Part shown: positions 21,553 through 27,003 of the stretch, in pieces | Layout: each line of letters opens with the position of its first letter | Position numbering within the stretch: position 1 is the stretch's first letter | Origin: Haloferax marisrubri | Lineage (GTDB): Archaea; Halobacteriota; Halobacteria; Halobacteriales; Haloferacaceae | Direction: 5' to 3' | DNA length: 64,000 bases | NCBI RefSeq assembly: GCF_001469875.2 | Contig: NZ_LOPW02000022.1 | Coordinates: forward strand, 73,829 to 137,828 | The notes under the pieces: model-generated | What the model was told of the DNA's origin: nothing | The model's database searches: none | What the model saw: only the letters and a program-made list of their open reading frames with translations | Program-made: the position numbers and the translations under genes

Positions 21553-22779
21553 ATGCGCCGGTTCGAGCGAAAACAAAACGTCTTCACCAACAAGGACGCC
21601 CTCGGGGAGTCCTACAAGCCCGAGCGCATCGAGGAGCGCGACGACGAGATTTCGGAGTACATGGACGCGCTCCAACCGGTCGTCGACGGCTGGGAGCCGA
21701 ACAACGTCTTCCTGTACGGAAACACCGGCGTGGGGAAGACCGCGGTCACCGAGTTCCTCCTCGAGATGCTCCTCGAAGACGTCTCGCAGTACGACGACGT
21801 GGACCTCAGCGTCATCTCCATCAACTGCAAGACGCTCAACTCCTCGTACCAGGTTGCGGTCGAACTCGTCAACGAGCTTCGGCCGCCGGGCGCGGAGATT
21901 AGCTCGACCGGCTACCCCCAACAGACCGTCTTCAAGAAACTGTTTCAGGAGTTGGACGACGTGGGTGGGACGGTGCTCATCGTCCTCGACGAGGTGGACT
22001 CCATCGGCGACCGCGACGAACTCCTCTACGAACTCCCGCGGGCGCGGTCGAACGGGAAGCTCGAAGACGCCAAGGTCGGCCTCATCGGCATCTCGAACGA
22101 CTTCAAGTTCCACGACCAGCTCGACCCGCGCGTGCAGGACACCCTCTGCGAGCGCGAACTCCACTTCCCGCCGTACCAAGCGCCCGAACTGCAGAACATC
22201 CTCGAATCGCGCGCGGAGGTCGCCATCGCCGAGGACGCCTGCGAGGAGGGCGTGCTCAACCTCTGTGCGGCGCTCGCCGCCCGCGACAGCGGGAGCGCGA
22301 GACAGGCGCTCGACCTCCTCCGACTGGCGGGCGAACACGCCGAGAACAAAGACGACGAGCGAATCACGCTCGACCACGTCGATATCGCCCGGCAGAAACT
22401 CGAACAGGAGCGCGTCGTCGAGGGGATGCGCGAACTCACCGAGAACGGCCACTTCGCGCTCCTCGCGGTCGTCTCGAAGGCCGCTCACGACGAGACGCCG
22501 TGTCGGATGCGCGACCTCTATCAGGAGTACCTCCGGCTGTGCAACTCCGCCGGCATCGACCCGCTCGCCCAGCGGTCGGTCCACAACCACCTCTCTGACC
22601 TCCGGATGCTCGGCATCCTCTCGGCGGAGGAGAACCGAACCGGCTCGCGCGGGAACTACTACAGCTACGCGCTCGACGTCCCCTTCGCCAGCGCGATGGA
22701 GGCGCTGTCCGACGTGCTCTCGCTCGACTCCGTCCTCGACGAGATTCGGAAGACCGCGACGCAGGCCGAGGCGGCCTGA
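21553..22779 (+). CDS. cdc6: Orc1/Cdc6-type replication initiator
   Basis: 408 residues. AAA+ domain: Walker A GNTGVGKTAVTEF near residue 56, Walker B GTVLIVLDEVDSIGDRD near residue 140, sensor 1 VGLIGISNDFKF, and the sensor 2 region with DSGSARQALDLLRLAGEHA. The C-terminal winged helix starts about residue 300 (FALLAVVSKAAHDETPCRMR) and would bind the origin boxes. It binds the origin and loads MCM. The upstream repeats are the likely target. Haloarchaea carry many paralogues; which one this is cannot be told from here. Confidence 0.93.
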   Translation: MRRFERKQNVFTNKDALGESYKPERIEERDDEISEYMDALQPVVDGWEPNNVFLYGNTGVGKTAVTEFLLEMLLEDVSQYDDVDLSVISINCKTLNSSYQVAVELVNELRPPGAEISSTGYPQQTVFKKLFQELDDVGGTVLIVLDEVDSIGDRDELLYELPRARSNGKLEDAKVGLIGISNDFKFHDQLDPRVQDTLCERELHFPPYQAPELQNILESRAEVAIAEDACEEGVLNLCAALAARDSGSARQALDLLRLAGEHAENKDDERITLDHVDIARQKLEQERVVEGMRELTENGHFALLAVVSKAAHDETPCRMRDLYQEYLRLCNSAGIDPLAQRSVHNHLSDLRMLGILSAEENRTGSRGNYYSYALDVPFASAMEALSDVLSLDSVLDEIRKTATQAEAA

Positions 22780-22978
22780 ACCCACCCGGCAGACGCGACT
22801 CTCCCACCGGTCGACAGTTCTCCACCGAGAGTCGCGATTGTCGTCTCACAGAACGAACGCGGACACGTCGAGCAACTGCATCGGCACTCCCCCCGAGACG
22901 GCCTGAGCCGTGCTGTTCTGCGGCGTGGCACGTCGAGCCTGAGGTGGTTTCTTAGTGTGGCAGGGAGACGTGGACACC

Positions 22979-24436
22979 ATGACGAATTTCTCCCAACGAC
23001 TCTCCACGGGAATCTCCGGGCTCGACACGGTGCTAGACGGCGGGGTAATCCCGAACCGGACCTACATGGTCCGTGGGGTGTCGGGGGCGGGAAAGACCAT
23101 CGTCGGCTACCACTTCCTGTCGGCGGGGATGGAACACGGCGAGGACGTGCTGTTCGTCTCGTTCGAGGAATCGGCCACCGAGCTCCGCGCGAACGCCGAG
23201 ACGCTCGGGTTCGACCTCTCCGAGGTCCCGATTCTCGACTTGAGCCCGTCGCCCGATGCGTTCCTCGACGACGAAGCCTACACCATGCTGTCGCCGAGCG
23301 AGGTGGAAGGGAAGTCGACGGCGACCGAACTGCGAGACGCAATCGATGAACACGACCCCGACAGAGTCGTCATCGACCCGCTGAGTCAGCTCGGTCGGCT
23401 CTCGTCGGACAGATACCAGTTTCGACAGCTCGTCTCGTCGCTACTGAGCTACCTCAAACGGTCGGGGGCGACGACGCTGTTTACCAGCCAACCGACGAGC
23501 GACGAGACGGACGAGACGCTCGCGTACCTCTGCGACGGGTCCGTGTCGCTGTCTCGGTCCGACCAGGGGCGGTCGGCCCGCGTCGAGAAGTTCCGGGGGT
23601 CGGACTCCCAGACGGGGCCGCACGCCATGCGAATCGACGGCGGCCAAGGGATACGCATCTTCCCGCGGCTCGTCCCCGAGTCGCACCACCGCGAGTTCAC
23701 CATCGAACCGCTGTCGTCCGGTATCGACGACCTCGACGCCCTGCTCGGCGGCGGCGGCATCGAACGCGGGAGCATCACGCTCATCAGCGGGCCCAGCGGC
23801 GTCGGGAAGTCGACGACCGGAGCCGCGTTCGCGCGAGCGACCGCCGACCGAGGCGAACGCGCCGCCGTCTACCTGTTCGAGGAAAGCAAGCGGAGCTTCC
23901 GCCACCGCTCCGAGTCCGTCGGCATCCCGATAGACGACCTCGTCGAGTCGGGGAACCTCCGAATCGACGCCGTCGAACCGCTCTCGCTTTCGACCGACGA
24001 GTTCGCCCAGCGCGTCCGCGCTGAAGTCGAGGCCAACGACACCAAATTCGTGCTGATAGACGGCACGGCGGGCTACCAACTCAGCCTCACCGACGAGCGA
24101 AGCGACATCCGCCGCGAACTCCACGCGCTGGCGCGGTACCTCAAGAACATGGGCGTCACCGTCGTGCTGACCGAGGAGGTCCAGCAGGTCACCGGCGCGT
24201 TCCACGCCTCCGACAACCACGTGAGCTACCTCGCGGACAACATCCTGTTCATCCGCTACATCGAGGTGCGCGGCGAGATTCGCAAAGCCGTCGGCGTCCT
24301 GAAAAAGCGGTTCGGTTCCTTCGAGCCGACGCTCCGGGCGTTCGAAATCGGGGCCGACGGCATCACGGTCGGCGAACCGCTGGACGAACTCCGAGGCATC
24401 CTGACGGGGACGCCGACGTGGAACGAGGCTGAGTGA
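22979..24436 (+). CDS. KaiC-like double RecA-domain ATPase
   Basis: 485 residues from ATG 22979 (MTNFSQRLSTGISGLDTVLD). Two KaiC domains: Walker A GVSGAGKTIVGYHFL near residue 34 with VSFEESATEL, and Walker A GPSGVGKSTTGAAFA near residue 273 with YLFEESKRSF. The CII C-terminal segment aligns with KaiC phosphosites: SDNHVSYLADNI keeps Ser at the S431 position and has Tyr at T432; RYIEVRGEIRKAVGVLKKR follows as in KaiC. The gene ends in a GTGA overlap with a LOV/PAS histidine kinase, suggesting a signalling pair. No KaiA or KaiB is nearby. Cytoplasmic. Confidence 0.88.
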   Translation: MTNFSQRLSTGISGLDTVLDGGVIPNRTYMVRGVSGAGKTIVGYHFLSAGMEHGEDVLFVSFEESATELRANAETLGFDLSEVPILDLSPSPDAFLDDEAYTMLSPSEVEGKSTATELRDAIDEHDPDRVVIDPLSQLGRLSSDRYQFRQLVSSLLSYLKRSGATTLFTSQPTSDETDETLAYLCDGSVSLSRSDQGRSARVEKFRGSDSQTGPHAMRIDGGQGIRIFPRLVPESHHREFTIEPLSSGIDDLDALLGGGGIERGSITLISGPSGVGKSTTGAAFARATADRGERAAVYLFEESKRSFRHRSESVGIPIDDLVESGNLRIDAVEPLSLSTDEFAQRVRAEVEANDTKFVLIDGTAGYQLSLTDERSDIRRELHALARYLKNMGVTVVLTEEVQQVTGAFHASDNHVSYLADNILFIRYIEVRGEIRKAVGVLKKRFGSFEPTLRAFEIGADGITVGEPLDELRGILTGTPTWNEAE

Positions 24437-27003
24437 CAGTGAGCGAAGACGCGTCCCGGAACACACGTTCCGCGCGCGACGCGTCCGGCGAGGAGCGGAT
24501 ACTCCTCGCGATTCATGGCGCTCGCGACCGCGAGCTACTGGCGGACCTCCTCGACGCGTTCGACGTCGTCATCTGGGAACCCGACCGTGCGGACGACGCC
24601 GGCCTCCCGGAGTTCGACCTCTGTATCGTCGATATGGCGACGTACTCGGCGGTCGCCGACGCGCTCGCGGAGCGAAAAGTTGACGCCGGCGACCGCTTCG
24701 TCCCGGTGTTGTTGACGGTCACGCAAGACGAACAGCGCGTCGCCGCACAACGCCTCAACGACGTTCCGGACGACGTGCTCTCGGTGCCCGCGCCGAGTGC
24801 GGTCATCCGGTCGCGGGTCGAATCGCTCCTCCAGACTCGACGGCAGTCGCTCCAACTCGCGCTGTACCGTCGCGCGATGGACAGCGCGACCGTCGGCATC
24901 ACCATCACCGAGGCCGACGGCGACCAACCGCTCACCTACGTCAACGACGCCTTCGAGGAGATGACCGGCTACGACCGCTCGGAGGCACTCGGTCAGAACT
25001 GCAGGTTCCTGCAGGGGGCCGAAACCGACTCCGAGCCGGTCGAGACGCTTCGCGAGGCGATCAAAAACGGTGAGAGCGCCGCGGTCAGCCTCACCAACTA
25101 CCGGAAGGACGGGACGCCGTTCTGGAACGAACTGGAGATATCGCCGGTGTACGACGACGGCGAACTCACCCACTTCGTCGGGTTCCAGACCGACGCGACC
25201 GTCCGCCACGCGCTCAAGAACCAACTCGTCCACGAGACGCAGACGCTCAAACAGCTCTTCGAGACGAGCCCGGTCGGCATCGTGGTCCTCAACGAAGACG
25301 AAACCATCATGCGCGCCAACGAGGCGGCCCAAGAGATTCTCGGTCTGGGGCGGTCGGTCGTGCTCGGGCAGCCGTACGACGCGCCCGAGTGGGACCTCGT
25401 CGACGAGCACGGAGAGCCGCTCGGCCGCGACGACCTCCCCTTCGACCGAGTGAGAGAGACCGGCGAGATAGTCAGCGGCTACCTGCACGGCATCGGATTC
25501 GGCGACGACCGCCGGTGGCTCGTCGCCAACGCCGCGCCCCTGACTGGAAGCGACGGGGAGCACGTCGGCGTGATTGCCGCCATCGAGGACGTGACAGCAC
25601 AGAAGCGACAGCAGCGCGAACGCGAGCGATTGCTCGACCTGTTCGACCAGAGTCAGAAAATCGCCTCGGTCGGCGCGTGGGAGGTCGACACCCAGACCGA
25701 TTCGGTGCTGTTCACGAGCGGGCTCGCGGAGCTTCTCGGCGTCGACTCGGAGGCGACGTTCGAACTCGCGGAGGCGTTTTCGTTCTACCACCCGGACGAC
25801 GAGCCCATGGTCCGCGCGGCGTTCGAGCGCCTCGTCGCGACCGGCGAAGAACAGTCCGTCGAGTGCCGCCTGGAGACGATGGACGGCGAGACGCGTTGGG
25901 TGAACGTCCGCGGCGTCGCGACGCAGGAAGGCGACCCCGTCTACCGAGGGACCGTCCAAGACATCACCGAGCGGAAGGCCCGCTCCCGGGAGTTAGAGCG
26001 CTACGAGCGCATCGTCGAGACGACCGCCGACCCGATTTACACGCTGGACGACAACCTCCGGTTCGTCCTCGCGAACAGCGCGACCGCCCACCTCGTGGGC
26101 CGTGCACCAGACGAACTCGTCGGAGAACACGTCTCGACGGTGTTCGGAGAGCGACACTCGCAAGCGCTCTTGGAGGCCATCGCGTCGCTTCTCGCGGGCG
26201 ATAGCGTCGAGGAGACCACCGAGACGGTCGTCACCGACCAAACCGGTGCCGAGCGGCAGTTTCAGACGACCATCGCGGCGAAGTCTTCCGAAGACGAGTT
26301 CGACGGTATCGTCTGTGTCGGCCGCGACGTGACCGACCTCCACGAACACGAGCGTCGCCTGTCCGTCCTCGACCGCGTCATCAGACACAACCTCCGGAAC
26401 AAGATGAACATCGCGCAGGCGCACGCGGAAATGGTTCTTGAGGGGACCGACGACGGCGACATGCGCGAGTCGGCGGCGGCCATCGAACGGGCGACGACCG
26501 AACTCCTCTCGCTCGCCGAGACGGCCCGGAAGTTCAGTTCCGCGCTCGACCCCGACGTGACGAAGCGGGTGCAACCCCAGAACGTCGCCGACTGCGTCCG
26601 CAACGTGGTCGAGGGGGCACAGCTCAGCTACCCCACAGCGACGATTTCCGTCGACACGCCGGAGACCGCGACCGCGTGGGCGCACTCGACGTTCGAACTC
26701 GCGGTGAACGAACTCATCGACAACGCCGTCGTCTACGGCGGCGACGAGGTCGAAATCGATCTCACGGTCACCGACGACGACGGGCCGGAGCAGGTGGTTA
26801 TCCGTGTCGCCGACAACGGGCCGGGAATCCCACCGCTCGACCGCGAAGCGCTCAACTCCGGGCGGGAGTCACCGCTCCAGCACACGAACGGGCTCGGACT
26901 CTGGTTCGTCCGCTGGACGGTGACGAACAGCAACGGCTCGATGGATATCGTGGACAACGAACCCAACGGAACCGTCATCGAGATTCGACTGCCGAAAGCG
27001 TGA
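24433..27003 (+). CDS. LOV/PAS multi-sensor histidine kinase
   Basis: 856 residues from GTG 24433, overlapping the kaiC-like stop. Residues 20-130 resemble a receiver fold. A PAS domain at 145-255 contains GQNCRFLQG (187-195), the flavin-binding LOV motif with the adduct Cys at 190. Further PAS domains lie at about 260-370, 375-505 and 510-640. The dimerisation helix has the phospho-His motif VIRHNLRNKMNIAQ near 648, and the catalytic domain has ELIDNAVVYGG, VADNGPGIPP and TNGLGLWFVRW. No TM helix, so soluble. Likely a blue-light or redox sensor coupled to the KaiC-like protein. Confidence 0.88.
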   Translation: MTVSEDASRNTRSARDASGEERILLAIHGARDRELLADLLDAFDVVIWEPDRADDAGLPEFDLCIVDMATYSAVADALAERKVDAGDRFVPVLLTVTQDEQRVAAQRLNDVPDDVLSVPAPSAVIRSRVESLLQTRRQSLQLALYRRAMDSATVGITITEADGDQPLTYVNDAFEEMTGYDRSEALGQNCRFLQGAETDSEPVETLREAIKNGESAAVSLTNYRKDGTPFWNELEISPVYDDGELTHFVGFQTDATVRHALKNQLVHETQTLKQLFETSPVGIVVLNEDETIMRANEAAQEILGLGRSVVLGQPYDAPEWDLVDEHGEPLGRDDLPFDRVRETGEIVSGYLHGIGFGDDRRWLVANAAPLTGSDGEHVGVIAAIEDVTAQKRQQRERERLLDLFDQSQKIASVGAWEVDTQTDSVLFTSGLAELLGVDSEATFELAEAFSFYHPDDEPMVRAAFERLVATGEEQSVECRLETMDGETRWVNVRGVATQEGDPVYRGTVQDITERKARSRELERYERIVETTADPIYTLDDNLRFVLANSATAHLVGRAPDELVGEHVSTVFGERHSQALLEAIASLLAGDSVEETTETVVTDQTGAERQFQTTIAAKSSEDEFDGIVCVGRDVTDLHEHERRLSVLDRVIRHNLRNKMNIAQAHAEMVLEGTDDGDMRESAAAIERATTELLSLAETARKFSSALDPDVTKRVQPQNVADCVRNVVEGAQLSYPTATISVDTPETATAWAHSTFELAVNELIDNAVVYGGDEVEIDLTVTDDDGPEQVVIRVADNGPGIPPLDREALNSGRESPLQHTNGLGLWFVRWTVTNSNGSMDIVDNEPNGTVIEIRLPKA

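Follow-up and report, generated by a model that had tools for sequence, protein, structure and literature searches.

Archaeal KaiC homologs have been proposed to act as signaling hubs tied to many sensors (Makarova 2017, in the account given in PMC5847659). In Haloferax volcanii, a KaiC gene stands in the order orc2, cirC, "fixL" (Maniscalco et al. 2014, PMC3941300); cirC is regulated by light and dark, the other cir genes need it for their light-driven rhythm of expression and become arrhythmic upon its deletion, and the paper names no responsible photoreceptor. Archaeal LOV kinases are already known (PMC12202551): ALovD-1, from Halonotius, is the only biochemically characterized canonical archaeal LOV domain, and KaiC is absent from the main text of the paper describing it. 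In cyanobacteria, the pseudo-receiver of CikA binds KaiB, and a 2025 review states that its authors knew of no published study on what archaeal pseudo-receivers do (PMC12632262). Here we analyze a KaiC gene and an overlapping histidine kinase gene in a 64,000-nucleotide stretch of Haloferax marisrubri DNA (the window; assembly GCF_001469875.2, contig NZ_LOPW02000022.1, positions 73,829 to 137,828).

We propose, with a probability of about 0.6, that this pair is a two-gene blue-light signaling module, in which a pseudo-receiver at the N terminus of the kinase would be docked on KaiC, a LOV domain would sense light, and the kinase core would provide the output.

A KaiC gene overlapping a LOV histidine kinase gene

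The first gene (22979 to 24436, ATG to TGA, on the forward strand, as are all features below unless stated otherwise) encodes a 485-residue KaiC-family ATPase with two RecA-like domains, the ortholog of H. volcanii cirC. As had been claimed in a sequence-only reading of this DNA, its stop codon overlaps the start of a histidine kinase gene (24433 to 27003, GTG start, TGA stop; 856 residues): the two share four bases, GTGA, at 24433 to 24436, and the same overlap occurs in five of six named Haloferax orthologs. The published cirC primers are found at 23052 to 23069 and 23576 to 23593 of the window, with two mismatches each; the forward primer also matches at the corresponding site of six other Haloferax genomes, where it has one mismatch. 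Together, these primer sites and the order of the genes identify the window KaiC as CirC and the window kinase as the product of the gene named fixL.

From the N terminus, the kinase comprises a pseudo-receiver, a LOV domain, three further PAS domains, and a kinase core; Pfam reports several PAS domains and HATPase_c. The first PAS domain (residues 145 to 256; 24865 to 25200) is assigned as LOV on its motif, pocket residues, and model. It contains GQNCRFLQG with the predicted flavin-adduct cysteine, Cys190 (25000 to 25002), and all of the LOV pocket residues (N189, R191, Q194, R207, N222, N232, and Q252), the flavin-contact positions checked being those generally known for LOV structures. LOV domains were the best matches in a PDB sequence search; an AlphaFold2 model (predicted local distance difference test [pLDDT], ∼90) superimposed on a Chloroflexus LOV domain with a root mean square deviation (rmsd) of 0.7 to 0.8 Å over 104 residues, and all 50 matches listed for the model by Foldseek are LOV photoreceptors. 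The sequence-only reading had recognized the LOV motif and had named, as what would refute it, a structure model lacking the pocket residues around the cysteine; those residues are present, and the assignment stands. Judged by sequence and model, the first PAS domain is a bona fide LOV domain, and both lines of evidence strongly support the prediction of flavin binding and of an adduct formed at Cys190 under blue light.

Such a domain might instead sense flavin redox state rather than light. This would fit a KaiC-linked subclade that carries Pro in place of Cys and retains most of the other pocket residues; however, the Cys and the pocket are kept in the window and in its Haloferax orthologs, and a related haloarchaeal LOV domain, ALovD-1, photocycles (PMC12202551), making redox sensing quite improbable here. 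The H. volcanii annotation would have the kinase be a FixL-like oxygen sensor: the gene is named fixL in PMC3941300, and residues 411 to 574 do give a partial NCBIfam FixL match, but the score, 74 bits, is below the cut-off of 850, and on this score we rejected the candidate. Since a LOV domain occupies the place of the first sensor PAS, we regard "fixL" as a misnomer and oxygen sensing by this kinase as barely credible.

The further PAS domains occupy approximately residues 272 to 637 (25246 to 26343; Pfam PAS_8, PAS_3, and PAS_4). In the kinase core (26383 to 27000), the H-box RHNLRN (His652) precedes an HATPase_c domain (residues 755 to 855; PF02518, E = 1e−15), and ELIDNA and DNGPGIP (N-box and G-box ATP lid) are present in the translation; the motifs suggest that the core is active.

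An N-terminal pseudo-receiver shared by KaiC partners

The most informative part of the kinase is one that the sequence-only reading overlooked: an unannotated N-terminal domain (residues 20 to 143; 24490 to 24861), which profile, model, and linkage identify as a pseudo-receiver specific to KaiC partners. Pfam returned no family for 101 members of this domain beyond single chance-level matches, and NCBIfam gave weak receiver-type matches at most; its profile matches the receiver of PleD (E = 1.5e−10). In a first AlphaFold2 model, of residues 1 to 274, a shallow alignment over the N terminus left it with a pLDDT of <50; remodeled with 101 domain sequences, it gave a receiver fold with a pLDDT of 93.6 (Z = 15.1 and rmsd 2.1 over 117 residues to PleD). 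The CikA and KaiA pseudo-receivers were absent among the structural matches listed for the domain, which excludes nothing. Of the catalytic receiver residues, the Asp is retained in 160 of 184 sequences; the acidic pair and the Lys are missing, which argues for a pseudo-receiver rather than a catalytic receiver.

We built a profile of the domain from 23 KaiC neighbors. When iterated, it drifted toward true receivers (for example, in neighbors at loci L173 and L182), so later counts come from the un-iterated profile. Searched against the whole window genome, the profile had a single match, the window kinase. Across 148 Haloferacaceae genomes, 135 of the 150 matches listed lie ≤2 kb from KaiC (median, 129 bp); the domain is present in all 105 KaiC-bearing genomes and missing in 37 of the 43 that lack KaiC (Fisher P = 6e−29, a value that overstates independence because the genomes are related). 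At 163 of the 167 loci, KaiC has a neighbor with a receiver-like N-terminal domain, be it a kinase or not. Distances between KaiC proteins correlate with those between their pseudo-receivers at r = 0.71 and with those between the kinase cores at 0.51 (partial correlations, 0.61 versus 0.27).

The kinase-less KaiC neighbors we examined were mostly pseudo-receiver-GAF-BAT-HTH_10 proteins; Bat-like examples that share the pseudo-receiver but end in BAT-HTH_10 and have no kinase are found at loci L078, L081, L087, L177, and L178. Since the pseudo-receiver is constant among KaiC partners while their sensors and outputs vary, we infer that it contacts KaiC, and linkage and co-variation suggest docking as the form of that contact.

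These results bear on the possibility that the LOV kinase is an ordinary two-component kinase signaling to an unlinked response regulator, with KaiC merely cotranscribed and not in contact with it. Its core motifs look active, and the genes next to the pair encode Cdc6, a DUF7268 protein, and an oligopeptide transporter but no response regulator, as is common for orphan kinases. This account is at odds with a receiver-like protein beside KaiC irrespective of the kinase, with the co-variation of KaiC and pseudo-receiver, and with the absence of the domain from most KaiC-less genomes; we consider it rather unlikely.

We give about even odds to a broader proposal, in which the pseudo-receiver would be a dedicated, previously unnamed KaiC-docking domain that attaches interchangeable sensors (LOV, PAS, or GAF) and outputs (kinase or Bat-type DNA binder) to rings of KaiC; blue light would be one of the inputs to the resulting KaiC-centered platform, which would be distinct from the KaiABC clock. 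The novelty of the domain was compared with literature other than Makarova 2017.

Conservation and lineage of the pair

The sequence-only reading had suggested checking whether the pair is conserved: we found the orthologous pair, with 85 to 91% identity, in 8 of the 15 Haloferax genomes and related pairs in other genera, a recurrence beyond chance. The closest named relatives of the window are Haloferax denitrificans, H. sulfurifontis, H. massiliensis, and H. gibbonsii. Throughout Halobacteria, a kinase adjoins most such KaiC genes, often overlapping them, so the pairing as such is ordinary; its breadth, together with the archaeal LOV kinases already described (PMC12202551), tempers the view that this unit is notable in a halophile. 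The sequence available for some loci reaches only 1 kb upstream from KaiC, so the count of kinase-less loci is an upper bound.

LOV kinases recur at 41 of the 138 KaiC loci having a kinase neighbor, compared with four LOV motifs among 40 HATPase genes in the window genome. In Haloferacaceae, 26 of the 146 LOV-Cys motifs listed lie ≤3.5 kb from KaiC, where random placement would, by our estimate, put ∼0.3. The LOV label changes at least 10 times on the KaiC tree (trees were made with FastTree). In the core tree, the window kinase falls within a 26-member clade composed only of KaiC-linked kinases (support, 96), and 29 other kinases, sampled from stretches of the window genome, all fall outside. 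Members of this clade that were first scored as LOV-less do carry LOV-derived domains, one with the Cys and four with Pro. The KaiC/LOV-kinase unit is thus an old lineage present in about ten genera, part of which has lost the Cys.

KaiC-linked LOV kinases in which Pro replaces the adduct Cys (GRNPR) occur at loci L071, L072, L074, L077, L114, and L116 (also L083, L099, L115, and L121); their LOV domains keep most of the other flavin-pocket residues and are candidates for redox or radical signaling. LOV-like domains near KaiC at L214 and L230 have Ser or Ala at this position. At L084, L102, L108, and L126 (genomes G073, G111, G024, and G106), the LOV gene is divergent from KaiC rather than downstream of it. 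Outside the archaea, an acidobacterial two-domain KaiC (L069, 8001 to 9437; 37% identity) is directly followed by a histidine kinase gene.

KaiC as a probable ATPase switch

Pfam finds two KaiC ATPase domains in the 485-residue protein (PF06745, E = 3e−74), and a solved KaiC aligns over residues 6 to 481 (phmmer, E = 3e−62). Walker A, catalytic Glu pairs, and Walker B are retained in both domains. The first has GVSGAGKT (residues 33 to 40; 23075 to 23098), with the Gly and Lys positions kept in 165 to 166 of 167 relatives, and Glu63-Glu64 (23165 to 23170); the second has GPSGVGKS (residues 271 to 278; 23789 to 23812), with Lys277 and the Gly positions invariant in all 167, and Glu301-Glu302 (23879 to 23884). 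Alignment to the solved KaiC places Ser416-Tyr417 (24224 to 24229) at Synechococcus elongatus KaiC S431-T432. The sequence-only reading was right that the Ser is kept and the Thr is Tyr, yet the state is family-wide: among haloarchaeal KaiC homologs, the first column is Ser in 165 of 167 and the next is Tyr in 146 of 167. The pair is therefore not special to the window locus, and we dropped it as a distinguishing feature; Tyr at the Thr position also occurs in some cyanobacterial KaiC3 proteins (PMC5520375).

Could the pair be a KaiC-based circadian timer with light input? The protein retains the Ser phosphosite and the residues needed to use ATP, two archaeal KaiC homologs autophosphorylate (PMC5520375), and the cir genes cycle in light/dark (PMC3941300). 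On the other hand, KaiB was not found above the cut-off in 15 Haloferax genomes, the window KaiC lacks a KaiA-type tail (in alignment, it ends close to the point at which cyanobacterial KaiC continues into its KaiA-regulated tail), and cir expression did not change during 12 h of constant light or constant dark (PMC3941300), hence no free-running rhythm was demonstrated. The absence of KaiB, the flat expression under constant conditions, and the family-wide Ser-Tyr leave a clock without support, and we consider it very improbable, having rejected it as the principal interpretation on the missing KaiB and tail. The protein also scores 173.5 bits against the NCBIfam circ_KaiC equivalog, below the cut-off of 546. 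Our analysis supports a KaiC-type ATPase switch rather than a clock. Of the earlier proposal that a light sensor is wired to a KaiC-type timer, then, the sensor survives, as a LOV kinase co-encoded with KaiC in a conserved unit, and the timer does not.

A model for the proposed blue-light module

In the module that we propose, cotranslation through the GTGA overlap would supply KaiC and kinase together, and the N-terminal pseudo-receiver would dock on the KaiC ring. The LOV domain would bind flavin and form the Cys190 adduct under blue light, the three PAS domains may relay between LOV and the kinase core, and the complex would combine light state with the nucleotide or phosphorylation state of KaiC, as SasA and CikA read or set the Kai complex. 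Output would follow by phosphotransfer from the kinase; elsewhere in haloarchaea, the same docking domain would serve other sensors or Bat-type DNA-binding output. Because the partners have outputs of their own (kinase or DNA binding), we lean, by analogy to KaiC with SasA, toward KaiC modulating its partner, to which light would be a second input; signaling in the opposite direction is less favored.

Several observations weigh against the module. Seven of the 15 Haloferax genomes lack this pair. Three more LOV motifs in the window genome (G000) lie away from KaiC, so other photoreceptors may exist. Part of the lineage can do without adduct chemistry, as the Cys-to-Pro homologs show. The pseudo-receiver profile, trained on KaiC neighbors, favors the KaiC-neighbor subtype of the domain, and the co-variation of KaiC and pseudo-receiver may partly reflect gene adjacency.

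The 2014 work left cir light/dark control without a named photoreceptor in organisms mostly without rhodopsins (we found none in 14 of 15 Haloferax genomes and none in the H. volcanii control), and the cirC locus encodes a LOV kinase under the label fixL. The unit is, in our view, the leading candidate for that photoreceptor, and it is a concrete candidate for how Haloferax cells connect light to KaiC proteins, in a genus that is genetically tractable for such a question. Little is known, moreover, of how the proposed archaeal KaiC hubs are wired, and the pseudo-receiver gives them a concrete protein interface.

Flanking genes and upstream sequences

Upstream of KaiC lies a gene for a Cdc6/Orc1 replication initiator (21553 to 22779; Pfam Cdc6_lid and Cdc6_C), "orc2" in H. 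volcanii; downstream of the pair, the DUF7268 and oligopeptide (opp) transporter genes are on the opposite strand. Alignment of seven Haloferax upstream regions revealed a conserved GGTGGTTTCTTAGTGT-type block ∼25 to 35 bases 5′ of the KaiC ATG (22944 to 22959), a possible B recognition element (BRE)/TATA. A second block, GCCGTGCTGTTCTGCGGCGTGGCAC (22909 to 22935), is mostly conserved 5′ of KaiC in seven Haloferax sequences and may be a regulatory site. Between 38000 and 62000 of the window, G+C content falls to 0.56 to 0.66, versus ∼0.67, possibly marking an integrated or foreign segment.

Comparison with known systems

The nearest counterpart is the cirC-"fixL" locus of H. volcanii, which shares the orc2-cirC-sensor kinase order, the size of the two-domain KaiC, and the primer match; in its description, however, the kinase is an oxygen sensor, FixL, and LOV, the docking domain, and the wider lineage go unmentioned (PMC3941300).

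ALovD-1 likewise comes from a multi-PAS haloarchaeal kinase. Its published positions are D28, Y30, Y36, K38, R44, C46, Y48, E61, K64, E69, E70, W87, and R96, and a full-length relative has 726 residues (PMC12202551). A KaiC-linked LOV kinase of genus g24, probably Halonotius, shares 12 of these 13 positions and is exactly 726 residues long from its Met start; relatives of ALovD-1 in this genus are KaiC-linked. KaiC-linked LOV kinases at L145, L235, and L236 have 10 to 12 of the 13 positions. ALovD-1 itself belongs to a different sublineage (GRNCRYLQ, Tyr triad) than the window LOV domain.

Bat-type regulators (REC-PAS-GAF-BAT-HTH_10; PMC5847659) resemble the window kinase in their diverged N-terminal receiver, and some KaiC partners are of this type, but their output is DNA binding rather than a kinase. 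Cyanobacterial KaiC with SasA and CikA offers a two-domain KaiC together with a kinase bearing a noncatalytic docking-type domain. The docking domain of SasA is thioredoxin-like. The Haloferax pair departs from the cyanobacterial arrangement in having no KaiB, in the N-terminal placement of its pseudo-receiver, and in carrying a true LOV domain within the same kinase.

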